Shown piece by piece: positions 2,715 through 35,903 of a stretch of 64,000 bases of DNA (within the stretch, counting starts at the first letter, position 1; every line of letters starts with the position of its first letter). Source of the DNA: Microbacterium sp. Bi121. Its GTDB lineage: Bacteria; Actinomycetota; Actinomycetes; Actinomycetales; Microbacteriaceae. Below the pieces are notes generated by a model. The model was not told the origin of the DNA. It saw only the letters and a list, made by a program, of their open reading frames with translations, and made no database searches. The position numbers and the translations under genes are program-made. The stretch spans positions 1 to 64,000 of the forward strand of contig NZ_CAKKLJ010000002.1 in assembly GCF_918698005.1 (NCBI RefSeq). Direction: 5' to 3'.

Positions 2715-3971
2715 ATGAACCGCACGCTGTCGCGTACGAAGTGGCTGACTGGCCTTGCGCTCGTCAGCGCCTCGGCGCTTGTGATCACGGGCTGCAGCAG
2801 CAGCACACCCGAACCCGAATCCAGTGAGGGCACGAACACCGAGCGCCCGGCCGATGTCGACCTGACACTCGAGCTGGGATCGCTGCTTCCCTCGACCGGA
2901 TCGCTCGCCTTCCTGGGCGCCCCGATGGAGTCAGGCGTGCAGCTCGCCGTCGCCCAGATCAATGAGGCGGATGCCGGCATCCAGGTCAACCTCACCCCCG
3001 CTGACGAGGGCGACCTCGACAACAAGGCGTACGAGACCTCGATCACCAACCTGCAGAGCGCAGGCATCACCGCCATGGTCGGTGCCGCCTCGTCGAGCGT
3101 CACGAAGCTGATCCTCGACGGCAACGCCGGCTCAGGCATCCTCACCGTCTCGCCGTCGAACACGTCGCCGGACTTCACGGGCATCAACCCGATGTACTTC
3201 CGCACGGCGCCGAGCGACAACCTGCAGGGCGAGGTGCTGGGCAACCAGATCGCCGAGGACGGTCACAAGACCCTCGGCATCATCTACCAGAACGACCCGT
3301 ACGGCACCGGCCTGTTCGAGGCGATCAAGTCCACGTTCGAGGGCACAGGCGGCGAGGTCGTCGCCGAGACGTCCTACAACCAGGGCGACGGTCAGTTCAA
3401 CGCCCAGGTGCAGGAGGTCGCAGCGGCCAACCCGGACGCCGTGGCCATCGTCTCGTACGACCAGTTCGCCACGATCGCCCCGCTGCTCGGCAACGCGGGC
3501 GTCGACACCGGCGCGCTGTACCTGGTCGACGGAAACCTGAAGGACTGGCCGGACCTCGGTGTGAGCCTCGAGGGCTCGAAGGGCACGCGCGCAGGCGCTG
3601 AGCTGCCCGACGACTTCATCGACCAGCTCAACGAGGTGTGGACCGCGCAGGGCAACCAGCCGATCGACGCCGTGACGTACTCCGCTGAGGCGTACGACGC
3701 GACGATCCTCATCGCACTGGCTGCTCTCAAGGGCATCTCGGTCGAGGGCAAGGACATCGCGGCCAACATGCAGGAGGTGTCCGGAGGCTCGGGCGAAGGC
3801 GAGAAGTGCACCACGTTCGCCGACTGCGCCGAGATCATCAACGGCGGAGGCGTGGCCGACTACGACGGCCTCTCCGGCGAGGTCACGTTCAACGACGACA
3901 ACGACCCGCAGGGTGCCGCGATCGGCGTCTACGAGTTCGATGCCGACAACGTGACCACTCGCATCAAGTAA
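2715..3971 (+). CDS. livK: Branched-chain amino-acid ABC transporter substrate-binding lipoprotein
   Basis: A 418-residue periplasmic-binding-fold protein (type I, Leu/Ile/Val family). It starts with a lipoprotein signal peptide whose lipobox ITGC puts the lipidated Cys near residue 29, followed by a Ser/Glu/Thr-rich linker. The mature domain has the family opening LGSLLPSTGSLAFLG and a clear receptor-ligand-binding body. The ATG at 2715 is chosen for the AAGGAG motif at 2705-2710. It is on the opposite strand from livHMGF but only 1.1 kb away, and no other binding protein is visible, so it most likely feeds that transporter. Ligand specificity (Leu/Ile/Val, or another amide or amino acid) cannot be read from sequence. 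Confidence 0.85.
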   Translation: MNRTLSRTKWLTGLALVSASALVITGCSSSTPEPESSEGTNTERPADVDLTLELGSLLPSTGSLAFLGAPMESGVQLAVAQINEADAGIQVNLTPADEGDLDNKAYETSITNLQSAGITAMVGAASSSVTKLILDGNAGSGILTVSPSNTSPDFTGINPMYFRTAPSDNLQGEVLGNQIAEDGHKTLGIIYQNDPYGTGLFEAIKSTFEGTGGEVVAETSYNQGDGQFNAQVQEVAAANPDAVAIVSYDQFATIAPLLGNAGVDTGALYLVDGNLKDWPDLGVSLEGSKGTRAGAELPDDFIDQLNEVWTAQGNQPIDAVTYSAEAYDATILIALAALKGISVEGKDIAANMQEVSGGSGEGEKCTTFADCAEIINGGGVADYDGLSGEVTFNDDNDPQGAAIGVYEFDADNVTTRIK

Positions 3972-3986
3972 CAACAGCACACAGGA

Positions 3987-4019
3987 AGCGCCCCGGATGC
4001 AGCATCCGGGGCGCTTTCG
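3987..4019 (+). terminator. Intrinsic terminator after livK
   Basis: A 14-bp perfect inverted repeat (AGCGCCCCGGATGC at 3987-4000 and its complement at 4002-4015) around a single base is followed by TTTCG. It lies 16 nt after the livK stop and between two convergent genes. Confidence 0.75.
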
Positions 4020-4033
4020 TGTGTGCCGGCTTT

Positions 4034-5023
4034 CTACCCGGCGGAGCGGGCGTGGGCGATCATGCGGTCGAACTGCGCGTCGCGCTCTGCATCGACGACC
4101 TGCGCCTCCGGATGCGCGTCGTGGTACGAGACGGCCCGCCGCGCGCCCTCGTCGAACGTGATCGTCGTGGCGAACTCGGGCACCAGCGCCTGCAGCTTCG
4201 ACGTGTCGAAGAGGGTCGAGTTCGCCTTGTCTCCGATCAGGGTCGGGCCGAGATCCGGCGCGAACGCCGCGATCGTGTCGGATGCCACGTGCACGAGCTC
4301 CGGCGCATCGACACCAGCCGCAGCGCCCATCCAGGTGTAGATCTGATTCCACGTCGGCGCGTGGGAACCGGTGATCGTGAAGTCCTCGCCGATCGCGCCC
4401 TTGTGACCGATGAGCCCGGTGAAGCCGACGGCGAAGTCATCGGCGTGCGTGACGGTCCACAGGCTCGTGCCGTCGCCGAGCACGACGACCGGGCGTCCGG
4501 CGCGCATGCGCGCGATGTCGTTCCAGCCGCCCATCGTCGGGAAGCGGCGCTCGTCGTAGGTGTGCGAGGGGCGGATGATCGTGATCGGCAGTCCGCGGTC
4601 GGCGGATGCTGCGCGCAGCAGGTCCTCGCACGCGATCTTGTCGCGGGAGTACTGCCAGAACGGGTTCTCGAGCGGCGTGCGCTCGGTGATCGGCAGCTGC
4701 GCCGGCGGCTTCTGGTACGCCGACGCTGAGCTGATGAACACGTACTGTCCCGTGCGCCCCTCGAACACGTCGAGGTTGCCGGCGATGTCCGCAGGGGAGA
4801 AGGACAGGAAGTCGGCCACCGCATCGAACTCGCGCCCGGCGAGTGCATCCCTCAGCGCCGCGGGGTCGCGGACATCCGCCGACACCGTCGTCACGGCATC
4901 CGGCAGACCACGCCGACCGCTGCCGCGGTTGACCACAGTCACGTCGTGGCCTCGTTCGACGGAGCGGCGCACACACGCCGCGCTGATGGTTCCGGTGCCG
5001 CCCAGGTAGAGAATGCTCGTCAT
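4034..5023 (-). CDS. NAD(P)-dependent SDR-family epimerase/reductase (atypical SDR)
   Basis: A 329-residue extended/atypical short-chain dehydrogenase. The N-terminal Rossmann motif is YLGGTGTIS (residues 6-14), then VVNRGS and a DVRD motif that normally contacts the adenine. The family Tyr is in SSASAYQKP, but the classical YxxxK is not obvious, as in atypical SDRs of the chloroplast stem-loop-binding type. The substrate is unknown. It has its own -10 box and is 28 nt downstream of livF, so it may be read both from its own promoter and from the liv operon. Confidence 0.75.
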   Translation of the reverse strand: MTSILYLGGTGTISAACVRRSVERGHDVTVVNRGSGRRGLPDAVTTVSADVRDPAALRDALAGREFDAVADFLSFSPADIAGNLDVFEGRTGQYVFISSASAYQKPPAQLPITERTPLENPFWQYSRDKIACEDLLRAASADRGLPITIIRPSHTYDERRFPTMGGWNDIARMRAGRPVVVLGDGTSLWTVTHADDFAVGFTGLIGHKGAIGEDFTITGSHAPTWNQIYTWMGAAAGVDAPELVHVASDTIAAFAPDLGPTLIGDKANSTLFDTSKLQALVPEFATTITFDEGARRAVSYHDAHPEAQVVDAERDAQFDRMIAHARSAG

Positions 5024-15667: not shown

Positions 15668-15916
15668 TCGGAGCAGCACGGCCCTTCCACTTTCGTCCAA
15701 TGACTGCCGACGTTGCGCCCTGCCGAAAGTCGTAACGCAGGTCGGCTCGGAAGAACTTCCGGTTAGCGATCTCTGAACTCTCTCGGGAAAGTCTCAGCCC
15801 GCTCATAAGCTCACACGCGAGTGGCCGCATGCACCGACCCTGTGCGTCGCGAAAGCTCCCTCGTGCGCCTCATGGCGACGCCCGGGGTCTCATCTGTCGA
15901 CGAGGAGAACAACCGA
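15668..15916. other. Intergenic region before the large secreted nuclease gene
   Basis: 249 nt without a recognisable gene. It ends with GAGGAG at 15902-15907, nine nt before the chosen ATG. I see no convincing promoter; GCTCATAAGCTCACAC near 15805 is a short 8-nt direct repeat of uncertain meaning. Confidence 0.3.
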
Positions 15917-18900
15917 ATGATGTCGTCCACCCCTGACGGTGCAGCGCGTCGCGCTGGGTCGTCCATCGCACGCAGACGGGGGCGCATCGCGACCCTCGCC
16001 CTGACCACCACATGCGCGCTGAGCTTCGGAACGCTCGTCGCCGCGCCCGCCTTCGCCGCCGCAGACGGCACAGGCGTCGTCATCAACGAGGCGTACCTGT
16101 CCGGCGGCAGCGCCGGTGCCGCCTTCAAGAACAAGTTCGTCGAGCTGTACAACCCGACCGATGCCGACATCACCCTCGACGGCATGTCGATCCAGTACCG
16201 GTCGGCGACAGGCACCGGCAACTCGAACGGCGTCGTCGCGCTCTCGGGCGTCATCCCCGCCGGCGGGTACTATCTCGTCCAGGGCGGCTCGAACGGTGCG
16301 AACGGAGCCGTGCTGCCTGAGGCCGACGCCGCGGGGAACCTCAACCCGAGCGGCACCACCGGCACGCTCGCCCTGGTGCAGGGCACGGCGGCCGTCACCC
16401 TCGGAACCGGTTCCGTCGTCGGCGCCGACGGCGTCGTCGACGTGCTCGGCTACGGCACGTCCAACACGTTCGAGACCGCACCGGCGACGGCTCCGGCCGG
16501 CAACACCGACGTCAAGTCCCTGAACCGAACCGACGGCGTGGACACCGACGACAACTCGGCCGACTTCACGCTCTCGGCCACCATCACCCCGCAGGCCTCC
16601 GAAACAGACCCGGGCGACCCCGGTGACCCCGGCGACCCCGATCCCACGACGGCGACGATCGCCGAGGTGCAGGGCACGACGGACGTCTCGCCCCTGAACG
16701 GACAGACCGTCACCGTCGAAGGCGTCGTCACGGCGGACTACCGCACCGGCGGCTACAACGGCATCGTCATCCAGACGAAGGACTCCGGGGGCGAGAACGA
16801 CGCGACCCCCGGTGCCTCCGACGGCGTCTTCGTCTTCCTGAACGGCAAGACGGTTCCCGGAGCCATCGGCGACCTCGTCTCGGTCACCGGAACCGTCTCC
16901 GAGTACTTCGGGCAGACCCAGATCAGCCCGGCGGACGCCGCCGGCGTCACGCTCGTGACCGCCGGTGCGGGTGTTCCCGCAGCGACGCCGCTCCCCGGGA
17001 CAGTTGTCGGCGGCGACCGCGAGGCGTACGAGAACATGCTCGTCGCCCCGTCCGGCGACTACCTGATCGCGTCCAGCCACCAGCTCTACAACTTCGGCAC
17101 CCTGTGGCTGAACCCGGGCGAGCTCAACGTCAAGAGCACCGAGCTCGAGCGCCCCGGTGACGCGGCGAATGCGATCGCAGCATCCAACCGCGCCGATCGC
17201 ATCCTCCTCGACGACGGATACAACGTCCAGATCAGCAACAGCGCGCACCCCGGCGACCAGCCGTACTTCACGAAGGACACGGTGGTCCGCAACGGCGACG
17301 CCGTCGACTTCGCCCAGGACGGCTACGTGCTGCAGTACGGATTCGACGACTGGCGCCTGCAGCCGGTCACGCCGATCAACAGCGACACGGCCGCCGCCGA
17401 CAAGGCGACGTTCGCCACCGAGAACCCTCGGTCTGCGACGGCCCCCGAGGTCGGCGGTGACGTCCAGGTCGCGGCGTTCAACGTCTTCAACTACTTCACG
17501 ACGTTCTCGGAGGACGACCCCGACGCCCGCGGGGCGAAGAACCAGGCGTTCTTCGACATCCAGCGCTCGAAGATCGTCACGGCGATCAATGGCCTGGATG
17601 CGGACGTGGTCGCGCTGATGGAGATCGAGAACTCGGTGCATTTCGGCGACGGAACGCCCGACGTGGCGCTGCAGAACCTTGTGAACGGTCTGAATGCCGA
17701 CGCGGGCAGCGACGTGTGGGACTACGTCGAGACGCCCGACGAGCTGCTCGACACGACGACCGACGTCATCACGAGCGCGATCATCTACAAGAAGGATGCC
17801 GTCACCCCGGTGGGAGACAGCATGGCGAAGATCGACGAGACGGTGTGGGGCAACGCCCGCGAGCCGATCGCGCAGACCTTCGACATGGATGGTCGCACGA
17901 TCTCGGTGGTCGCCAACCACTTCAAGTCGAAGTCGGGCGACGGCGCAGAGCCGGCCGACGGTCAGGGACACTTCAACGCCGACCGCACCGCTCAGGCGCA
18001 GTCTCTGCTGGAGTTCACCGACGAGATCACGGAGGCATCGGGCAGCGACGACGTTCTGCTCCTCGGCGACTTCAACGCGTACGCGAAGGAGGACCCGATC
18101 AACGTGTTCTCCGAGGCGGGCTGGAGCGACCTCGTGCCAGCGAACGCCGCAGGTCAATACACGTACTCGTTCGACGGCGAGCTCGGCTCCCTCGACCACG
18201 CCATCGCCTCGCCGTCCCTTTCGGCGTCGATCACCGGCACTGGTGTCTGGACGATCAACTCGCCGGAGTGGAGCGACCGCGGCTACGCGTTCGGCGCCAC
18301 CGAGGCGGGCACGCCGTTCCGCTCCAGCGACCACGACCCGGTCATCGTCGGCATCTCGAGCGAGATCCCGCCGGTCGACATCGACATCGTCACGATCAAC
18401 GACTTCCACGGTCGCATCGAGGCCGACGGTGCGGCGGCCGGTGCCGCCGTGCTCGCCGGGGCTGTGAAGTCTGTCCGCGACGCGAACCCGAACACGGTGT
18501 TCGCCGCTGCGGGCGACCTCATCGGAGCATCCACGTTCACGTCGTTCATCAACGACGACAACCCCACGATCGACGCGCTGAACGCCGCCGGGCTCGAAGT
18601 GAGCGCCGCCGGCAACCACGAGTTCGATCAGGGCTGGGAGGACCTTCGCGACCGCGTGCAGGACCGCGCGGACTGGGAGTACATCTCCTCGAACGTGTTC
18701 CTCACCGAGACCGGCGAGACCGCCCTGGCCCCGGCATGGGTCAAGGAGATGGACGGCGTCCGCGTCGGCTTCATCGGCGCTGTGACCGAGGAGCTCGACT
18801 CGCTCGTCTCGCCAGAGGGCATCGCCGATCTGGAGGTGCGCAGCATCGTCGACTCGGTGAACGACGTGGCCGATGATCTGACCGACGGCGACTCCGCCAA

Positions 18901-20560
18901 CGGCGAGGCCGATGTGCTGATCCTGCTCGTGCACGAGGGTGCGACGTCCACGGACGTCGCGAGCATCACGCCCGAGTCGGCGCTGGGCACGATCGTCGAC
19001 GGCGTCGACGACAGCGTGAGCGCGATCGTCTCGGCGCACACCCACCTCGCGTACAACCACGTCATCGACGGCCGCCCTGTGGTCTCGGCGGGTCAGTACG
19101 GCGAGAACTTCGGCCTGATGAACCTGCAGGTCGACCCGGAGACGAAGGAACTGCTCTCGATCACCAACGAGATCAAGCCCCTCACGCAGGACGGTGCTCC
19201 GCTCTACGAGCCGATCGCCGAGGTGCAGTCGATCGTCGACGATGCCAAGGCAGAGGCCGACGTCCTCGGTGCTGAGCCGGTCGGAACCATCACCGGTGAC
19301 TTCAACCGGGCGCGTCAGACGAACGGCTCGGAGAACCGCGGCGGCGAGTCCACGATCGGCAACTTCGTGGCCGACGTGCAGCAGTGGGCGACCGGTGCTG
19401 ACCTCGCGATCATGAACCCCGGTGGCATCCGAGCGAACCTGACGTACGCGTCGTCCGGGGCATCCGATCCGGACGGCAACGTGACGTTCCGTGAGGCGGC
19501 GACGGTGCAGCCGTTCGCCAACACGCTGGTCACCCTGAACCTCACCGGTGCGCAGCTGAAGGGCGTGCTCGAGGAGCAGTGGCAGCCGGCGGGTGCGAGC
19601 CGTCCGTTCCTCAAGCTGGGGCTCTCGGAGGGTCTGCAGTACACGTACGACCCGACGGCGGCGGCGGGGGAGCGGATCACCGCGATCACGCTGAACGGCG
19701 ACCTGATCGACCCTGAGGCGTCCTACGTCGTCGCGGCCAACTCGTTCCTCGCAGCCGGTGGAGACAACTTCTTCACCCTCGCCGAGGGCACGAACAAGGC
19801 CGACACGGGCAAGATCGACCTGCAGTCCATGGTCGATTGGTTCGACGCCAACGGCACGGCGACGCCCGACCTCGCGCAGCGCGCCGTCGGCGTGACGCTC
19901 AGCGCTCCGGATGCCGACGGCTACAGCGCTGGCGACGAGGTCACCATCGACCTCTCATCGCTCGCGTTCAGCGGCGGCGACCCGGCGCCGGGTGAGGTCA
20001 GCGTCTCGCTCGGTGACGTCGTTCTCGCCAGCGGCGCGGTGGATCCGACGGTCGTCGACACCACCGACGAGGCCGGCCGAGCGAGCCTGACGTTCACGGT
20101 CCCGGAGGGGGTGTCCGGCGAGCAGCTGCTCACCGTCGCGGTCGTGGATGCCGGCACGAACGTCCGCGTTCCGATCACGTTCGCGGATGCGGGCGAGGAG
20201 GAGTTCGAAGGGACGATCGAGGTCAAGGGCAACACCGTCAGCGCAGGCAAGAAGCTCGCCGTCTCCGGCGACGACTTCACGCCGGGCGAGACGGTGACCG
20301 TGACCCTCGAGTCGAAGAAGGGCAAGCTCGTCGAGCTCGGCACCGTCGTGGTCGACGAGGACGGCTCGTTCTCCGCATCCCTCACGGTGCCGAAGAACAC
20401 GGATGCCGGGCGCTACACCGTGATCGTCGCACAAGCCGATGGCGACCAGGCCACCGATCAGGTCACGGTCAACAAGGGCGGCGGCAACGGCGGCGGCCTC
20501 GGCGGCATCATCAAGGCGGTGGTCGACTGGCTGTGGGATCTGATCTCCGGCTGGTTCTGA
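15917..20560 (+). CDS. Secreted ExeM/NucH-type nuclease fused to a 5'-nucleotidase
   Basis: A 1547-residue multidomain secreted protein. Residues 1-49 form a signal peptide (cut after AFA). Next come a lamin-tail domain (about 52-165), a nuclease-associated OB-fold (about 242-350), an endonuclease/exonuclease/phosphatase domain (about 513-813; motifs AAFNVFNYF, LMEIENS, GDFNAY, SSDHDPV), a calcineurin-type phosphoesterase (about 820-1095; NDFHG, AAGNHEFDQG, SAHTHLAY), the 5'-nucleotidase C-domain (about 1128-1320; NPGGIRANL) and Ig-like repeats. The end is a Gly run plus one hydrophobic helix with no sortase motif. The likely job is to degrade extracellular DNA and strip phosphate from the products. 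The ATG at 15917 has GAGGAG nine nt upstream. Confidence 0.92.
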   Translation: MMSSTPDGAARRAGSSIARRRGRIATLALTTTCALSFGTLVAAPAFAAADGTGVVINEAYLSGGSAGAAFKNKFVELYNPTDADITLDGMSIQYRSATGTGNSNGVVALSGVIPAGGYYLVQGGSNGANGAVLPEADAAGNLNPSGTTGTLALVQGTAAVTLGTGSVVGADGVVDVLGYGTSNTFETAPATAPAGNTDVKSLNRTDGVDTDDNSADFTLSATITPQASETDPGDPGDPGDPDPTTATIAEVQGTTDVSPLNGQTVTVEGVVTADYRTGGYNGIVIQTKDSGGENDATPGASDGVFVFLNGKTVPGAIGDLVSVTGTVSEYFGQTQISPADAAGVTLVTAGAGVPAATPLPGTVVGGDREAYENMLVAPSGDYLIASSHQLYNFGTLWLNPGELNVKSTELERPGDAANAIAASNRADRILLDDGYNVQISNSAHPGDQPYFTKDTVVRNGDAVDFAQDGYVLQYGFDDWRLQPVTPINSDTAAADKATFATENPRSATAPEVGGDVQVAAFNVFNYFTTFSEDDPDARGAKNQAFFDIQRSKIVTAINGLDADVVALMEIENSVHFGDGTPDVALQNLVNGLNADAGSDVWDYVETPDELLDTTTDVITSAIIYKKDAVTPVGDSMAKIDETVWGNAREPIAQTFDMDGRTISVVANHFKSKSGDGAEPADGQGHFNADRTAQAQSLLEFTDEITEASGSDDVLLLGDFNAYAKEDPINVFSEAGWSDLVPANAAGQYTYSFDGELGSLDHAIASPSLSASITGTGVWTINSPEWSDRGYAFGATEAGTPFRSSDHDPVIVGISSEIPPVDIDIVTINDFHGRIEADGAAAGAAVLAGAVKSVRDANPNTVFAAAGDLIGASTFTSFINDDNPTIDALNAAGLEVSAAGNHEFDQGWEDLRDRVQDRADWEYISSNVFLTETGETALAPAWVKEMDGVRVGFIGAVTEELDSLVSPEGIADLEVRSIVDSVNDVADDLTDGDSANGEADVLILLVHEGATSTDVASITPESALGTIVDGVDDSVSAIVSAHTHLAYNHVIDGRPVVSAGQYGENFGLMNLQVDPETKELLSITNEIKPLTQDGAPLYEPIAEVQSIVDDAKAEADVLGAEPVGTITGDFNRARQTNGSENRGGESTIGNFVADVQQWATGADLAIMNPGGIRANLTYASSGASDPDGNVTFREAATVQPFANTLVTLNLTGAQLKGVLEEQWQPAGASRPFLKLGLSEGLQYTYDPTAAAGERITAITLNGDLIDPEASYVVAANSFLAAGGDNFFTLAEGTNKADTGKIDLQSMVDWFDANGTATPDLAQRAVGVTLSAPDADGYSAGDEVTIDLSSLAFSGGDPAPGEVSVSLGDVVLASGAVDPTVVDTTDEAGRASLTFTVPEGVSGEQLLTVAVVDAGTNVRVPITFADAGEEEFEGTIEVKGNTVSAGKKLAVSGDDFTPGETVTVTLESKKGKLVELGTVVVDEDGSFSASLTVPKNTDAGRYTVIVAQADGDQATDQVTVNKGGGNGGGLGGIIKAVVDWLWDLISGWF

Positions 20561-29023: not shown

Positions 29024-29173
29024 CCGCGTTGCTCATCTGGATCGGGTTGCTCGCCTGACCCCGTTGCGACACGGGCCGTTCACCTTCTGGACGGACCCCG
29101 TGCGACTGCCGGACAGCCGGAATCGGTCGACTGAGGCACGTTCGTGTCCCGATCCCGATTCTTCTGGAGTCAC

Positions 29174-32100
29174 ATGTCTCGCCTGACCAGCGGGCTGGCA
29201 GCATCGGCGGTGTGCGCCCTCGGCGCAGCCACCCTGTTCGCCGTGCCCACCGCAGCTCTCGCCGAAGCGGCGCCGCTCGGCGTCCGCATCAATGAAGTCG
29301 TCTCGAACAGTGGCAGCCCGGATGACTGGATCGAGTTCTACAACTACTCCGGGACGCAGGTCGACCTGAGCGGCTACATCGTCCAGGACAACAGCGACAA
29401 GAACCCGTACACGCTTCCCACCGGGACGGTTCTCGAGCCCGGTGCGTACCTCGTGCTCGACACGCTGGTGGACGGCGTGGGCGACTTCGACTTCGGCCTG
29501 GGCAAGGGCGACAGCGTCCGGTTGTTCGCGCCCGGTGACGCGAACGGGCAGACTCCGCTGCTTGAGGCGACCTGGCCCGCCGAGACTCACGCTGTTCCCA
29601 GTTGGGGTGCGAAGGGCGACGGCGCTGACGTCACGTATGGGCTGACCGCTGAGGCGACCAAGGGCGCAGAGAACGTCTTCTCGTCGGGAGGCGAAGGCGA
29701 GCCCGGTGGTGGCGAGCCCGGTGGTGGAGAACCCAGTGCCGGCGGCGATGTCGTGCTGAACGAGATCATCTACGACGAAGCATCCGGATACACCGACCGC
29801 GTCGAGATCGTCAACACGGGCACCGAGCCCGCTTCGATCGCCGGCTGGACGATCTCCGACGACAAGCGCGATCGCTTCAGCACGCCGTTCGCCGAGGGCA
29901 CGACCCTCGCGCCCGGTGCGTTCGCAGTGCTCGTGACCGATGTCGACTTCACATTCGGGCTCGGCAAGGGCGACGAGGTCGTCCTCTACGACGCCGCGAA
30001 CGCCGAGGTCGACGCGTACACCTATGAGGCGACCTCGCCGACCGCGACCTGGGCGCGCTGCCCCGACGGCACGGGCGACTGGGTGCACGCGACGACTGCG
30101 ACGCCCGGCGCGGCCAACGACTGCGCGCCGGCCTCCGTCCCCGGCTCCGTCGTGCTCAACGAGGTCGACTCGCAGCCGTCCGACTGGGTGGAGCTGCACA
30201 ACCCCGGCACCGAGGCATTCGATCTCTCCGGCTACGAGATCCGTGACAACTCCGACGACCACCGCTGGGTGTTCCCGGCTGGCAGCACCATCGCGGGCGG
30301 CCAGTTCCTCGTCGTCGAGGCGAACGCTGCGGGCACGATCTACGACGACCAGTCGAAGACCTACGTCGACGGCATCTTCTCAGCGGCGATCGGCATCGGC
30401 GGCGCCGACGAGGTCCGCCTGTTCGACACCGCGCTCGAGCTGGTCGACCGCACCGGAACCTGGCAGGAGCACGCCAGCATCGACGGCGACTTCGCTGCGG
30501 CGACGCTCGCGCGCTGCCCCGACGGCACCGGCGACTTCGTGCTCGCCTTCGAGACCAAGGGCGCGGCGAACGAGTGCGTGCCGCCGACCGTCGCGATCAA
30601 CGAGATCGAGTCGAACGGCGACGCCACCGACTGGGTGGAGGTCGTCAACATCGGTTCCGCGCCCGTCGACATCTCCGGCTGGACGCTCATGGACAGCGAC
30701 CCGGTCGGTCACGCGGGCGAGACCACGCCGCTGCCGACCGGCACGGTGCTCGAACCCGGCGCATACTTCGTCTTCGACCAGAACACGAACTTCGCGTTCG
30801 GCCTGGGCGGCGGCGACACGGTCACCGTGCGCGATGCCAACGGCAGCACCGTCGACGAGCACGTCTACGCAGAGCACGCAGCGGGCGTCCTCGCACGATG
30901 CGAGGACGGCACCGGCGAGTTCGTCGACGTCGCGGTCAGCACCAAGGGCCTCCGCAACGCCTGCGGCAACCCCGTGCGCATCAACGAGGTCGAATCGGAC
31001 GGCGACCCCGACTGGGTCGAGCTCGTCAACCCGACCGCCGAGGTGCTCGATGTCTCCGGCATCGTCGTGAAGGACGACGACGACACCCACGTTCACGAGA
31101 TCGCCGCGGGCACCAGCATCCCGGCGAACGGCTACCTCGTTCTCGACGACCTCGAGTTCGGAATCGGCAAGGACGACACGATCCGCGTGTTCGACGGCGA
31201 CATGCTCGTGGACTCCACCTCGTGGGGTGCAGGGCACGTGGCTCCGACCTGGGGACGCTGCCCGGACACGACCGGCGCATTCGCCGCGACGGCGGAATCG
31301 ACACCCGGCGCGGCGAACGTCTGCGTCGGCGAGATCCCGGTGTCGCCGTGGCCCGGTTCGGCCGACGTGCGTGCGCTCGACAGCATCCCGACCTTCCTCG
31401 AGGACAGTTCAGGGCTCGACGTCCAGCAGACCGCAGATGGGACGTTCCTCTGGGCCGTGGACAACGGCACGGGAAAGATCTGGAAGATGACGGCCTCAGC
31501 GGACGGATCCGTCGCGTTCGCTGACGGCTGGGCCGACGGCAAGCGCGTGCGCTTCCAGAAGGACGCATCCGACCCGAACGCGGCCGGCCCCGACACCGAG
31601 GGCATCACCGTCGACGGCAATGGCCTCGTCTACGTGGCATCCGAGCGCGACAACGGCGACAAGGGCGTCAACCAGAACAAGATCCTGCAGGTCGACCCGA
31701 ACGCACCCGGCCCCGACCTGGTCGCTCAGACCGAGTGGGACCTCACCGCCCAGCTGCCTGCGGTAGGCGCGAACCTCGGAATGGAGGCAGTCGAGTGGGT
31801 GCCGGATGCGGCGCTGGCCGGCAAGCTCTACGACGACAACACGAAGGCGCCGTACGAAGCTGCGACGTACGCCGGCGGCGGACTGTTCTTCGTCGCCGTC
31901 GAGGACAACGGCGGCGTGTACGCCTTCGCGCTCGCAGCGGGCGGGTTCGCAACGCTCGTGTCGACCATCGACCCCGGCCTCGCCGGTGTCATGAGCCTCG
32001 ACTACGACTCGTTCCTGGGCGTCCTGTGGGCGGTGTGCGACGACGGCTGCGGCGGCACCTCGGCGCAGGTGACGCTCAACGGGACGGACAAGCCCGGCAT

Positions 32101-32764
32101 CGCGCACTTCGCGCGCCCGGCCGGCATGCCCGACATCAACAACGAGGGCTTCGCCACGGCGCCTGCTTCGCTGTCGACCGACGGCCAGCGTCCGGTGTGG
32201 TGGTTCGCCGACGGGTTCACGTCGGAGGCGCTGCACGTCGGAACAATGCCTGGTCTCGCAGACACCGACCCTGGAGAGGGCCCGGGTGAGAACCCCGGCG
32301 AGAACCCGGGTGGCGGCGGATCCGACGACGGCGGCAACCAGCCCGGTCCGTCGGTCGAGCCGCTCCCCGGCACCGGCCTGGTGGACGACAACCGCGGTGG
32401 CGCGACCGTCGACCAGACGGTCGTCGCACCCGGCGGCCAGGTGACGATCACGCTGGGTGCTCAGCACGCCGGTGTGGACGTCGAGGTGTTCATGTACTCC
32501 GACCCGGTCTTCCTCGCGGCGGGTACGCTGAACGCCGCCGGTGCGATCACGGTCACCATCCCCGCGGATGCTCCGGCCGGCGCCCACCGCCTCGCGGTGT
32601 ACTCGGCCGACGGCGAACTGCTCGGATGGGCGAACATCCAGGTAAGCGGCGAGCTCGCGACGACCGGTGCCGAGACGTCGGCCGGTGGACTCGTCCTCGC
32701 GCTCGGCCTGCTGCTCGCCGGCGGCCTGGCCCTGACGCTGCGCCGCCGCATGCAGAACGTGTAA
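29174..32764 (+). CDS. Cell-wall-anchored protein with five lamin-tail domains and a beta-propeller
   Basis: A 1196-residue surface protein. A signal peptide ends near residue 31 (ALA). Five lamin-tail domains follow at about 35-120, 190-276, 324-419, 472-556 and 600-676; each starts with INEV or LNE, has WVEL/WIEF and LSGY-type motifs, and most end with a RCPDGTG segment and TPGAAN. Residues about 722-1025 resemble esterase-like/SdiA-regulated propellers (DSSGLDVQQT; DTEGITVDGNGLVYVASE). A Pro/Gly/Glu linker, an Ig-like domain, then LATTG at 1161-1165, a helix and RRRMQNV make a class E sortase signal. GGAG lies before the ATG at 29174. No sortase is encoded in the window. Confidence 0.9.
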   Translation: MSRLTSGLAASAVCALGAATLFAVPTAALAEAAPLGVRINEVVSNSGSPDDWIEFYNYSGTQVDLSGYIVQDNSDKNPYTLPTGTVLEPGAYLVLDTLVDGVGDFDFGLGKGDSVRLFAPGDANGQTPLLEATWPAETHAVPSWGAKGDGADVTYGLTAEATKGAENVFSSGGEGEPGGGEPGGGEPSAGGDVVLNEIIYDEASGYTDRVEIVNTGTEPASIAGWTISDDKRDRFSTPFAEGTTLAPGAFAVLVTDVDFTFGLGKGDEVVLYDAANAEVDAYTYEATSPTATWARCPDGTGDWVHATTATPGAANDCAPASVPGSVVLNEVDSQPSDWVELHNPGTEAFDLSGYEIRDNSDDHRWVFPAGSTIAGGQFLVVEANAAGTIYDDQSKTYVDGIFSAAIGIGGADEVRLFDTALELVDRTGTWQEHASIDGDFAAATLARCPDGTGDFVLAFETKGAANECVPPTVAINEIESNGDATDWVEVVNIGSAPVDISGWTLMDSDPVGHAGETTPLPTGTVLEPGAYFVFDQNTNFAFGLGGGDTVTVRDANGSTVDEHVYAEHAAGVLARCEDGTGEFVDVAVSTKGLRNACGNPVRINEVESDGDPDWVELVNPTAEVLDVSGIVVKDDDDTHVHEIAAGTSIPANGYLVLDDLEFGIGKDDTIRVFDGDMLVDSTSWGAGHVAPTWGRCPDTTGAFAATAESTPGAANVCVGEIPVSPWPGSADVRALDSIPTFLEDSSGLDVQQTADGTFLWAVDNGTGKIWKMTASADGSVAFADGWADGKRVRFQKDASDPNAAGPDTEGITVDGNGLVYVASERDNGDKGVNQNKILQVDPNAPGPDLVAQTEWDLTAQLPAVGANLGMEAVEWVPDAALAGKLYDDNTKAPYEAATYAGGGLFFVAVEDNGGVYAFALAAGGFATLVSTIDPGLAGVMSLDYDSFLGVLWAVCDDGCGGTSAQVTLNGTDKPGIAHFARPAGMPDINNEGFATAPASLSTDGQRPVWWFADGFTSEALHVGTMPGLADTDPGEGPGENPGENPGGGGSDDGGNQPGPSVEPLPGTGLVDDNRGGATVDQTVVAPGGQVTITLGAQHAGVDVEVFMYSDPVFLAAGTLNAAGAITVTIPADAPAGAHRLAVYSADGELLGWANIQVSGELATTGAETSAGGLVLALGLLLAGGLALTLRRRMQNV

Positions 32765-32776
32765 CCGGACCGCGCA

Positions 32777-32813
32777 CGAAGGCGCGTGGGGCCCAGCGCT
32801 CCACGCGCCTTCG
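32777..32813 (+). terminator. Hairpin terminator after the LATTG protein
   Basis: CGAAGGCGCGTGG at 32777-32789 pairs perfectly with 32801-32813 around an 11-base loop, 13 nt after the stop. No T tract. Confidence 0.7.
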
Positions 32814-32838: not shown

Positions 32839-32882
32839 ATCAGTTCGGTCGGTTATGGCGCGGAATAACCGACCGAACTGAT
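32839..32882. promoter_or_regulatory. Perfect 18-bp inverted repeat, candidate operator
   Basis: ATCAGTTCGGTCGGTTAT (32839-32856) and its exact reverse complement (32865-32882) flank an 8-base centre. The right arm covers the position expected for the -35 of the downstream gene (32875-32880), so a bound repressor would block it. A smaller CCCGCA/TGCGGG pair lies just upstream (32821-32838). Confidence 0.65.
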
Positions 32883-32897: not shown

Positions 32898-32903
32898 TAG
32901 AGT
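32898..32903 (+). promoter_or_regulatory. -10 box (TAGAGT) for leaderless GH67-like gene
   Basis: TAGAGT ends 6 nt before the ATG at 32910. Confidence 0.5.
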
Positions 32904-32909
32904 CCTCGT

Positions 32910-35903
32910 ATGGGAGCGACGGCGCGATGGCGGGGCGCAATCGCGCTCCTCGTCGTCCTGGGGCTGCTCGCCGCAGGCTTCGGGGTGTCGCTGGCCGTCG
33001 GCGACGCGCTCGGCATCCGCTCCGAGCCCGCCGAAAGGATGGGGACGAGCGAGTCGGCGGATGCCCCGATCCTGCCGGCGGTCGCACCGCCGCAGTTCTC
33101 GGTCGAGGCCCCGCAGGACGACCCCCGGGTCCAGGCGGCGGTCGACGCGTTGAGCGACGCCGTGGCGGCGCGCACCACCGACGGCGCAGTCGGTCTGACC
33201 GTCACCTACGCTTCGGCGGACGGCGATGACGACGCGTACACGCTGTCGGCCACAGCATCCGCTCTGAGCATCGAAGCATCCACGGCCGCCGGCGCCGTGC
33301 GGGGCGTGTACGACATCGCCCGTGCTGTCCGCGACGGTCGCGAAGTCGCGACGCTGATCGGCGAGGTCCCGGCATCCCGACTGCCGCTGCGCATGGCCGA
33401 CCTGGGTGCCGTCGGGGTCGCAGCCGACCCGGTGCAGTGGCGATCGGGCAGTGACTACTCGCACGCATCGAAGGCGTTCGCCGACGTGTTCCTCGCGGAT
33501 CCGCCATACATCGACGAGGCAGCGCTCGCCGCCGCCTACGACGAGTACGACGCGTACCTTCGGCAGATGCTCGCCGACGGGTACAACGCGATCGCGTTTC
33601 CCGGTTTCGTGGAGTTCGCGACGTTCTCGGGCGTCGACGGCGTCTATCCCGACGGCGACGCTCACATCGCGAAGGCACTGGCATTGCGTGAGGCGTTCGG
33701 CCCGTTCTGGGAGCGTGCGGAGGAACTCGGCACGAAGGTGTTCCTGCGCACCGACATGCTCACGCTCACGACGCCGCTCGAGGCGTATCTGCAGGATCGC
33801 TTCGGCGGACTGGACACCGAGAACCCCGAGCTCTGGGACGTCTATGCGGCGGGGCTCGACGAGCTGTACGCGGCCGAGCCAGCGCTCGACGGCGTGCTCA
33901 TCCGCATCGGCGAGGCAGGCAACGTCTACGACGTCGAGGGGTGGGACTACTACTCCGCGCTCGCCGTGACGACGACGGATGCCGTTCGCGCGATGCTCAC
34001 GGCACTCACCGCCCAGGCCGAGAACGCGGGACGCGAGGTGATCTTCCGCACCTGGAGCGTCGGCGTCGGGGCCGTCGGCGACATGCACACGAACGTCGCA
34101 TCCTACGAGGCCGTGCTCGGAGGCATCGATTCGCCGGCGCTGATCGTGTCGACCAAGTACACGCTCGGCGACTTCTACAGCTGGCTGCCGCTGAACGACA
34201 CGCTGCTCCACGGCGACCAGCGCCGGATCGTCGAGTTCCAGAGCAGACGCGAGTTCGAGAACAACGGCGCATTTCCGAACGACCTCGGCCCGGAGTACCA
34301 GTGGGCGCTGCAGACGCTGCTCGCGGGCAACGAGAACATCGAGGGCATCTGGGCCTGGACGCAGGACGGCGGGCCGTGGCGCGCGGGCCCGATGATCCTC
34401 TACCAGAAGGCCGGCTTCTGGCAGCTCGCCGATCTGAACACCCGGGTGGCCGGTCGCCTCGCGCAGGACCCGGAGGCGGACGTGCGGCAGATCACGGCGG
34501 ACTGGGCGCGGGAGTGGTTCTCGGATGACGCCGAAACTGTCACCGCGATCGTCGACGTGATGGCGGCGTCGAGGGAGGCGATCGAGCAGGGCCTGTACAT
34601 CCAGCCGTTCGCCGAGGAGCGGGTGTTCGCGATCGGGCTCGAACCGCCGCCGATGATGTGGATCTTCGAGTGGGACATCCTCACCGGCGATTCCGCCGTG
34701 CTCGATGTCATCTACACGATCTCGCGTGATCGGCTCGATGAGGCGCTCGCCGGGGGAGCGGATGCCGTCGCCGCTGTCGAGCGCATGCGGAAGGCGATCG
34801 CGGCGACAGATGCCGACACGTGGCGCGACCCTGAGCTGCGCCATCGGTTCATCGACACCCTCGACTACGAGCTCGACACGCTCGACATGCTCGCAAGCTA
34901 CCGCGGAATGATCATGCATCAGGCGCAGTGGCATGACACGCTCACCCCGGATGCCTATGCGGCTTGGCAGGATTCCCGTGACGCCTTCGCAGTGCAGGCG
35001 GAGAAGCACCTGGCGACGTACGAGGGCGACGTCGACTACCCGGCGTACAATCTGACAGCCGCCCAGCTCGGCATCGAACGCGCCGACCGCGACCTCGCGA
35101 TGGCGTGGACTTCGCGGGTGCTGCTCGCCTTGACGATCGCCTGGATCGTGATCGGGATGCTGGCCGCCAGAACTCGCCTCGTTCGGCGACCAGGCGCCGC
35201 TGCGGCGCGGGCGAGCTGGGTGAGCGCGACCAGACCCTGGCGGGCCGAGGAATCGACGCTCGGAATGCTGCGCGCCGACCGCGTACTTCTGGTCGCGGTA
35301 CCGGCCGCTCTGCTGGTCGCGACGAGGGCCGTGCAGACGTCGCTGCTGTCGTGGACGCATCTGGCCGTCGTCCTCGGCGCCTGGGCGGTGTTCCTGACGG
35401 TGGTTCTCCTCGCGTCGCGCCGGCGTTCGCCGTGGCCGGTGATCGCCGTCGTCGGCGGCGTGATCATGCTGCGCTGCGCTCTCACGCTCGCCGTGCTGTC
35501 GCTCAGCGGGCCCGGCGGCTACTGGTTCGCGTTCTGGACGGAACCGCTGCAGCGGTCGATCTACATCACGCTCGCCGTCGCCCTGTTCGTCTGGATGTTC
35601 GCCGCCGCCGGCTGGGTGCTCGCGGGTCAGTGGGGGCGCCGCAGAGCATGGGGCATCGTGCTGAGCGGGATCGGGGCAGGGCTCGCCGTGCCTGCCACTG
35701 TCATCGCGGTCGTCGGGCTCGAGCGCGCCCTGACGATCTGGAACGATCAGATGGGCCTGCTGCCGTGGGGGCTGTCGCGGATCCTCGGCATCACGGTCTA
35801 CCTCGACATCCCGGCATCCACCGCCGTGTACGCCGCCGTCGCCGGCGCGGTCGTCTGCGGCATCGGCACCCTGCTGGCCGTGCCGTGGCGGCGTCGCGGC
35901 TGA
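32910..35903 (+). CDS. GH67-like (alpha-glucuronidase-type) glycosidase with polytopic membrane C-terminus
   Basis: A 997-residue protein. One helix (about 8-30) anchors the N-terminus. Residues about 60-140 look like the small alpha/beta domain that precedes GH67/GH20 barrels (SIEASTAAGAVRGVYDIAR). A barrel of about 550 residues follows; GVLIRIGEAG (Glu335) and VEFQSRREFE (Glu442) recall conserved acidic segments of alpha-glucuronidases. From about residue 730 to the end there are seven predicted helices, which family members normally lack. The catalytic part should face outside. The TAGAGT box fixes the ATG. The substrate (possibly a glucuronic-acid-containing glycan) is inferred only from distant resemblance. 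Catalytic assignments are tentative. Confidence 0.65.
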   Translation: MGATARWRGAIALLVVLGLLAAGFGVSLAVGDALGIRSEPAERMGTSESADAPILPAVAPPQFSVEAPQDDPRVQAAVDALSDAVAARTTDGAVGLTVTYASADGDDDAYTLSATASALSIEASTAAGAVRGVYDIARAVRDGREVATLIGEVPASRLPLRMADLGAVGVAADPVQWRSGSDYSHASKAFADVFLADPPYIDEAALAAAYDEYDAYLRQMLADGYNAIAFPGFVEFATFSGVDGVYPDGDAHIAKALALREAFGPFWERAEELGTKVFLRTDMLTLTTPLEAYLQDRFGGLDTENPELWDVYAAGLDELYAAEPALDGVLIRIGEAGNVYDVEGWDYYSALAVTTTDAVRAMLTALTAQAENAGREVIFRTWSVGVGAVGDMHTNVASYEAVLGGIDSPALIVSTKYTLGDFYSWLPLNDTLLHGDQRRIVEFQSRREFENNGAFPNDLGPEYQWALQTLLAGNENIEGIWAWTQDGGPWRAGPMILYQKAGFWQLADLNTRVAGRLAQDPEADVRQITADWAREWFSDDAETVTAIVDVMAASREAIEQGLYIQPFAEERVFAIGLEPPPMMWIFEWDILTGDSAVLDVIYTISRDRLDEALAGGADAVAAVERMRKAIAATDADTWRDPELRHRFIDTLDYELDTLDMLASYRGMIMHQAQWHDTLTPDAYAAWQDSRDAFAVQAEKHLATYEGDVDYPAYNLTAAQLGIERADRDLAMAWTSRVLLALTIAWIVIGMLAARTRLVRRPGAAAARASWVSATRPWRAEESTLGMLRADRVLLVAVPAALLVATRAVQTSLLSWTHLAVVLGAWAVFLTVVLLASRRRSPWPVIAVVGGVIMLRCALTLAVLSLSGPGGYWFAFWTEPLQRSIYITLAVALFVWMFAAAGWVLAGQWGRRRAWGIVLSGIGAGLAVPATVIAVVGLERALTIWNDQMGLLPWGLSRILGITVYLDIPASTAVYAAVAGAVVCGIGTLLAVPWRRRG

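Follow-up and report, generated by a model that had tools for sequence, protein, structure and literature searches.

The window analysed here is a 64,000-nucleotide stretch of Microbacterium sp. Bi121 (RefSeq assembly GCF_918698005.1, contig NZ_CAKKLJ010000002.1, positions 1 to 64,000 of the forward strand). Its plus strand carries, at 32910..35903, a gene that starts with ATG and encodes 997 amino acids (aa), in which a predicted enzyme domain resembling glycoside hydrolase family 67 (GH67) is followed by a membrane domain of seven helices. This open reading frame (ORF) is a genuine gene, backed by relatives that match it through both halves. Other frames of the region also hold long ORFs, for example one of 835 aa on the antisense strand, as is ordinary in high-GC DNA. 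A genome search with the protein found one copy in the window's own genome.

A pattern search of named genomes returned 236 matching stretches; 166 of these could be confirmed as loci, and the analysis went on with the best 80. Among these best 80 of 166, the match extends to residue 968 or further in 76; three of the remaining four are broken by contig ends and the fourth has an alignment that ends at residue 911. Thus, the two-part layout is the rule among them, and the homologues of like arrangement that the initial annotation of this gene had suggested seeking are present in many genera, including Microbacterium, Agromyces, Leifsonia, Cellulomonas, Micromonospora, Catellatospora, Actinomadura, Terrabacter, Isoptericola, Cellulosimicrobium and Microterricola. 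Searches of sampled genomes, using a single protein as query and therefore open to missing distant relatives, found matches in 14 of 249 Microbacteriaceae genomes (the window's own included), in 12 of 296 genomes of the class (counting its own, the genome G479 with the membrane part only, and a weak 88-residue match in G468) and in 3 of 296 genomes of the phylum (again with its own). The class and phylum counts mark the gene as accessory. Outside the phylum, coverage consisted of a plasmid collection and the best-80 list.

Three loci with a gene broken by contig ends (L043, L060 and L066) were excluded from the family set, leaving 77, and 40 sequences chosen from these by hand for spread were combined with the window protein into the 41-sequence alignment and profile used throughout. 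Mean pairwise identity is 0.60 in the enzyme half and 0.56 in the membrane half, and the distances of the two halves are correlated (Spearman 0.81).

Hydropathy, both of the single protein and averaged over the 41 sequences, places one membrane segment at about residues 9-30 and a further seven within residues 728-995. The full-length AlphaFold2 model, built with the alignment as input (predicted local distance difference test, pLDDT, 85.3; predicted TM-score, pTM, 0.84), has agreeing helices at residues 2-34 and then at 716-751, 788-809, 815-836, 842-877, 879-908, 910-935 and 971-990. The initial annotation had described a protein anchored in the membrane at both ends with seven C-terminal helices, and this is what both methods return. 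The N-terminal membrane helix (residues 1-34, 32910..33011) is probably an uncleaved signal anchor. In the family alignment the inner loops and the C-terminus carry 2.0-5.8 Lys or Arg and 0.2-1.1 Asp or Glu per sequence, and the three outer loops 0-1.9 and 0-2.7, respectively. This pattern, with inner loops rich in Lys and Arg and outer ones not, fits an enzyme part outside the cytoplasm, which is where the GH67-like domain is predicted to lie given one N-terminal and seven C-terminal helices.

The enzyme half can be divided into an N-terminal alpha/beta domain similar to GH20b and GH67N (residues 61-155, 33090..33374; PF02838 below cut-off and fold comparison), a GH67-like barrel (residues 156-490, 33375..34379; AlphaFold2, Foldseek, VIA and HHalign), a GH67C-like helical segment (residues 507-575, 34428..34634; PF07477 and the family profile) and a helical domain, defined on the AlphaFold2 model, that joins the enzyme to the membrane domain (residues 596-715, 34695..35054). 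When the model was compared with the Protein Data Bank (PDB), rows 1-10 of the Foldseek output were all GH67, headed by 1l8n at an E-value of 2.7e-15, and rows 1-9 of the VIA output for residues 59-694 were likewise all GH67 (1mqq, Z 21.5 over 524 residues at 3.5 A), with lower scores for GH138 (18.5), GH84 (18.2) and GH20 (16.9). The GH67-like catalytic region that had been proposed from the sequence is thereby borne out, and the check for an unrelated fold, which had been named as a means of refuting it, returned a predicted fold that is GH67-like.

Profile searches give a more layered picture. The family profile finds GH67 chains among PDB sequences at E 3.6e-4, and HHalign aligns it with four true GH67 proteins, picked by their Pfam model and aligned without manual editing, at E 1.3e-7 (probability 94, 390 columns). 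The initial annotation had also proposed a search with GH67 and GH20 models, and here the outcome was divided: GH67C (PF07477) matches the window protein above its cut-off (E 1.5e-6, 28.4 bits against 27), at model positions 6-59 of 223 only, whereas GH20b (PF02838, E 0.019) falls under its cut-off and the GH67M catalytic-domain model (PF07488) has no match in the window protein at E 1, in the 41 members at E 0.1, or anywhere in the window's genome at E 0.001. At E <=0.1, GH67C is matched by 40 of the 41 members, GH20b by 17 and DUF4838 by 7, the last weakly (best E 0.0043). NCBIfam matches to the window protein and the members were at chance level at most. Because the GH67M profile is not matched, I file the protein as GH67-like and not as GH67; fold and profile comparison together support a reading of its enzyme half as a distant GH67-like module.

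In the HHalign alignment D421, E442 and E448 share columns with D364, E386 and E392 of AguA, a GH67 enzyme whose numbering is consistent with the PDB entry titles E285N and E386Q, and all three are invariant (41/41). E335, equally invariant, is one column off AguA E285. I take D364 and E392 to be the base carboxylates and E285 to be the catalytic acid of GH67. The acidic residues that had been expected at the catalytic site are thus found on the carboxylate columns for D421, E442 and E448, and are one column out for the acid. R332, R380 and K416, again invariant in all 41, stand opposite a Lys, an Arg and a Lys of GH67, basic residues that presumably bind the uronate carboxylate. The aligned span of 455 positions holds 13 invariant acidic and 8 invariant basic residues, and the chance of three out of three landing in this way is about 2e-5 for the acidic and about 5e-6 for the basic ones, assuming independent positions. 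These candidate residues, assigned by HHalign and conservation, lie in RIGE (residues 332-335, 33903..33914), which holds R332 and the candidate general acid E335; at R380 (34047..34049), on a conserved GH67 Arg; in KYTLGD, from K416, on a conserved GH67 Lys, to D421 (34155..34172); and in EFQSRRE, from E442 to E448 (34233..34253). Among stretches delimited by hand, the most conserved of the enzyme half is residues 576-595 (GLEPPPMMWIFEWDILTGDS; 34635..34694), with a mean commonest-residue frequency of 0.97, 15 of 20 positions invariant and pLDDT partly low; it is perhaps a mobile active-site loop. A passage of PMC3879575 describes the GH67 acid as carried by a mobile loop and arginines as often being determinants for glucuronate.

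The seven-helix domain with its lead-in occupies residues 716-997 (35055..35900) by hydropathy and AlphaFold2, and reaches a pLDDT of 88.7 when modelled separately. The highest conservation of the membrane half is found in the outer loop at residues 936-968 (35715..35813; motif GLExALTxWNDQM.LLPWGLSRILGI), with a mean of 0.88 and 14 of 33 positions invariant (n=41), followed among the membrane loops by the outer loop at residues 865-882 (35502..35555; motif GPGxYWFxFWTxP..R), with a mean of 0.76 and 7 of 18 invariant (n=41). Compared with PDB folds, residues 716-997 gave a best Foldseek E-value of 0.53 and a best VIA Z of 6.0 over 60 residues; compared with PDB sequences they gave nothing at E 1, and Pfam held no family common to more than one of the 41 members at E 0.1. 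Among the matches listed, none stood out that would make the domain a transporter, rhodopsin or receptor of known type; the rows for rhodopsins and G-protein-coupled receptors have Foldseek E-values above 0.5 and TM-scores of about 0.2. The membrane domain may be new, absence from such fold-match listings leaving a known fold possible.

A search of 246 class genomes with the membrane domain yielded nine strong matches, one of them without the enzyme part (G479), and one weak match (E 0.002). In G479, a member of the same genus, a gene of 314 aa (L104, about 3944-4960, minus strand) passes from an N-terminal helix directly into the seven-helix domain, the enzyme part being gone. Of the conserved positions, this version retains 32 of 38 in the membrane and inner parts as against 20 of 32 in the outer parts, and the loss is centred on the GPGxYWF loop, where 3 of 10 conserved positions at 867-882 are kept; by comparison, the 40 intact relatives, when each is scored against the rest, retain 28-32 of 32-33 outer positions. 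The loss of most of the motif along with the enzyme part suggests that the GPGxYWFxFWT loop, at least, serves the enzyme part, a hint that comes from one lineage.

The start of the gene is preceded by a -10-like TANNNT box (TAGAGT, 32898..32903, plus strand), 6 nt before the ATG. Across the 39 homologous loci with an ATG start as picked by script, 36 have such a box ending 4-10 nt before the start, compared with 0-2 in eight other windows; over all 77 upstream stretches the box ends 0-6 nt before the start in 35 and 7-13 nt before it in 12. This recurrence supports the start codon and suggests that the gene has its own, nearly leaderless promoter. Given that box and the varying neighbours, the gene is apparently transcribed as a unit of its own. 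A conserved operon was rejected, as the neighbours are mixed across 81 stretches (the window and 80 loci, some short-flanked), the neighbouring genes having been called by a crude GC-position score that missed some. Microbacterium loci often have an ABC ATPase and a permease upstream (clusters 1 and 2 of a single-linkage grouping, with 33 and 24 loci). The 20 scanned neighbours include an M23 peptidase, 2-phosphosulpholactate phosphatase, CHAD, GGDEF and EAL proteins, a cyclase, a histidine kinase, aminotransferases, a BCCT protein and an alpha-amylase.

Upstream of the box lies a perfect inverted repeat of 18 bp around an 8-nt loop (32839-32882, 28-71 nt before the start), a possible operator or hairpin. 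Its core has a single occurrence in the genome and did not turn up upstream of the homologues examined, and the repeat is not used as evidence here. A second inverted repeat of 13 bp with an 11-nt loop (32777-32813) directly follows the upstream gene and is terminator-like, lacking a T run. That gene (29144-32764) encodes 1206 aa with five lamin-tail domains and a phytase-like esterase domain, and ends in a LAVTG/LPXTG-like anchor that scores barely under the cut-off. Elsewhere in the window, an ORF of 1579 aa (15821-20560) with lamin-tail, endonuclease/exonuclease-phosphatase, metallophosphatase and 5'-nucleotidase C-terminal domains encodes a probable surface nuclease or nucleotidase.

What, then, might a GH67-like module do when joined to such a membrane domain? 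The conserved fusion, with its near-invariant outward motifs, would suit an enzyme whose substrate lies at the membrane surface. I give a probability of roughly 0.5 to the reading that the protein is an extracytoplasmic alpha-uronidase-like hydrolase with its own membrane domain, whose substrate would be an acidic glycan close to the membrane, possibly lipid-linked. In this reading the GH67-like domain would be fixed at the outer surface of the cytoplasmic membrane by the N-terminal helix and the seven C-terminal ones; D421, with E448 and E442, would activate water, and E335, in the loop after strand 4, would give the proton. An acidic sugar would be held through its charged group by R332, R380 and K416; the simplest candidate is an alpha-linked uronic acid, bound by its carboxylate and subsequently released. 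More speculatively, the outer loops GPGxYWFxFWT and WNDQM.LLPWGLSRILG may face the enzyme and help to present a membrane-proximal glycan, perhaps lipid-linked or wall-anchored. The initial annotation had left the choice between a sensor, a transporter-coupled hydrolase and a lipid-glycan enzyme, and of these the lipid-glycan enzyme is favoured. A stronger version, which I regard as tentative and would lean against, makes the seven-helix domain a membrane fold not described before, which together with the GH67-like domain would build a composite active site, such that the outer loops would bind a lipid-linked or membrane-anchored glycan and pass its alpha-linked acidic sugar to the catalytic carboxylates.

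Several observations weigh against the hydrolase at the membrane surface. The third outer loop (residues 809-816) is unremarkable, with a mean of 0.69 and 1 of 8 positions invariant, and two stretches of the conserved loops have pLDDT <50 in the AlphaFold2 model. The second outer loop of G479 keeps 16 of 21 conserved positions, near the 32 of 38 kept elsewhere, so the loss there concerns mainly one loop in one lineage, and the correlated distances of the two halves are expected for any two parts of one gene. Since the acid register is off by one, E335 as the acid is tentative. L110, one of two soluble GH67-like relatives in Persicobacter sp. JZB09, lacks an acidic residue in the column of E448 and keeps the equivalents of D421 and E442, which speaks against E448 being required in all relatives; the other, L109, keeps one there. 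The uronic-acid reading leans on the roles ascribed to the GH67 Lys and Arg residues, and sulfate or another acid could be the ligand instead, L110 adjoining a GH86 porphyranase. Finally, a lipid-linked pathway finds no support in a conserved operon.

The rival that survives best, which I consider unlikely, is that the membrane domain is a mere tether for an alpha-glucuronidase-like, exo-acting hydrolase, which would remove acidic side groups from oligosaccharides on their arrival at the cell surface, for instance those of plant xylan. The nearest fold is indeed that of an alpha-glucuronidase acting on xylan oligosaccharides, and the hosts include Cellulomonas, Cellulosimicrobium and Microbacterium, genera known for plant-polymer breakdown. 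Two of the 20 scanned neighbours are carbohydrate-related (at L053 a beta-helix protein with a GH141 piece barely under the cut-off, at L064 the alpha-amylase), but the other 18 are not polysaccharide genes. Moreover, a single helix suffices as a tether, and the N-terminus already supplies one. The outer loop at 936-968 is also well conserved. A less probable rival still is a sensor or transporter, in which binding or cleavage of an acidic sugar at the enzyme-like domain would lead the seven-helix domain to relay a signal or the released sugar inward. Seven helices with a large outer domain would suit it, as would the signalling neighbours (GGDEF, EAL, cyclase, histidine kinase) at some loci; however, these vary between loci, Pfam recognises no cytoplasmic signalling domain, the inner loops are short except for residues 753-785, and the fold searches of the membrane domain described above brought out no outstanding transporter or receptor. 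That the protein is a non-catalytic binder retaining the GH67 fold is very improbable: the acid register is out by one column and some carbohydrate-binding proteins derive from hydrolases, but all 41 members have E335, D421, E442 and E448, although their enzyme halves differ on average at about 40% of positions.

If the protein is a hydrolase of a membrane-proximal acidic glycan, it would suggest an unrecognised step of acidic glycan or glycolipid turnover in Actinomycetota and would offer structural work a membrane domain without a known fold; if the composite-site version also holds, it would define a family of integral-membrane glycoside hydrolases whose substrate is a surface glycan of actinobacteria. 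There is also a practical risk of misannotation, in that the GH67C match by itself could yield the label xylan alpha-glucuronidase.

How does this protein compare with known systems? The GH84 and GH20 hexosaminidases have a related barrel, and the membrane protein has a GH20b-like N-terminal domain, yet both rank below GH67 (GH84 Z 18.2 at an rmsd of 8.5 A; GH20 Z 16.9 over 368 residues). GH115 alpha-glucuronidase is described in a passage of PMC3879575 as having the GH67 core fold without its active-site residues, and by that description differs from the membrane protein, which keeps three GH67 carboxylate columns. GH115 was not among the matches listed by Foldseek and VIA (50 rows), which excludes nothing. 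GH138 (6hze/6hzg) is the second-best fold, below GH67, with a Z of 18.5 and 12% identity, and the family profile, searched against PDB sequences at E 1, picked up no GH138 chain; I take GH138 to be an alpha-galacturonidase acting on rhamnogalacturonan II.

Soluble relatives with shared motifs are L109 (548 aa) and L110 (578 aa) of Persicobacter sp. JZB09, the only relatives from outside Actinomycetota met in the plasmid records and the best-80 list. They share R(I/F)GE, FR-W or YR-W, K---GDF, and VE or IE with the membrane protein, but their ORFs lack the seven-helix domain. On the plasmid, a cluster at L110 64-6368 has the soluble GH67-like protein between a GH2 protein and the GH86 porphyranase, a hint that these soluble relatives act on an algal galactan.

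The nearest known system is GH67 itself, which frees (4-O-methyl)glucuronic acid from xylo-oligosaccharides with inversion. Geobacillus AguA (1mqq/1l8n) and Cellvibrio/Pseudomonas GlcA67A (1gqi/1h41) have the same fold over residues 59-694 and share the equivalents of D364, E386 and E392 as well as the GH67C segment. In contrast, identity is about 16%, the GH67M model has no match, the acid loop reads RIGEAG and not KADSEG as in GH67, and the conserved LEPPPMMWIFEWDILTGDS has no GH67 counterpart aligned by HHalign. GH67 enzymes typically lack a multi-helix membrane domain, and most of the hydrolases known to have this fold are soluble or secreted; among the matches listed for open-licence PMC full text, none described a transmembrane, membrane-anchored or membrane-bound GH67 or a seven-helix fusion. 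The protein of Microbacterium sp. Bi121, unlike a typical GH67, has eight predicted membrane helices, contributed by an N-terminal helix and by about 280 extra C-terminal residues that contain the other seven.

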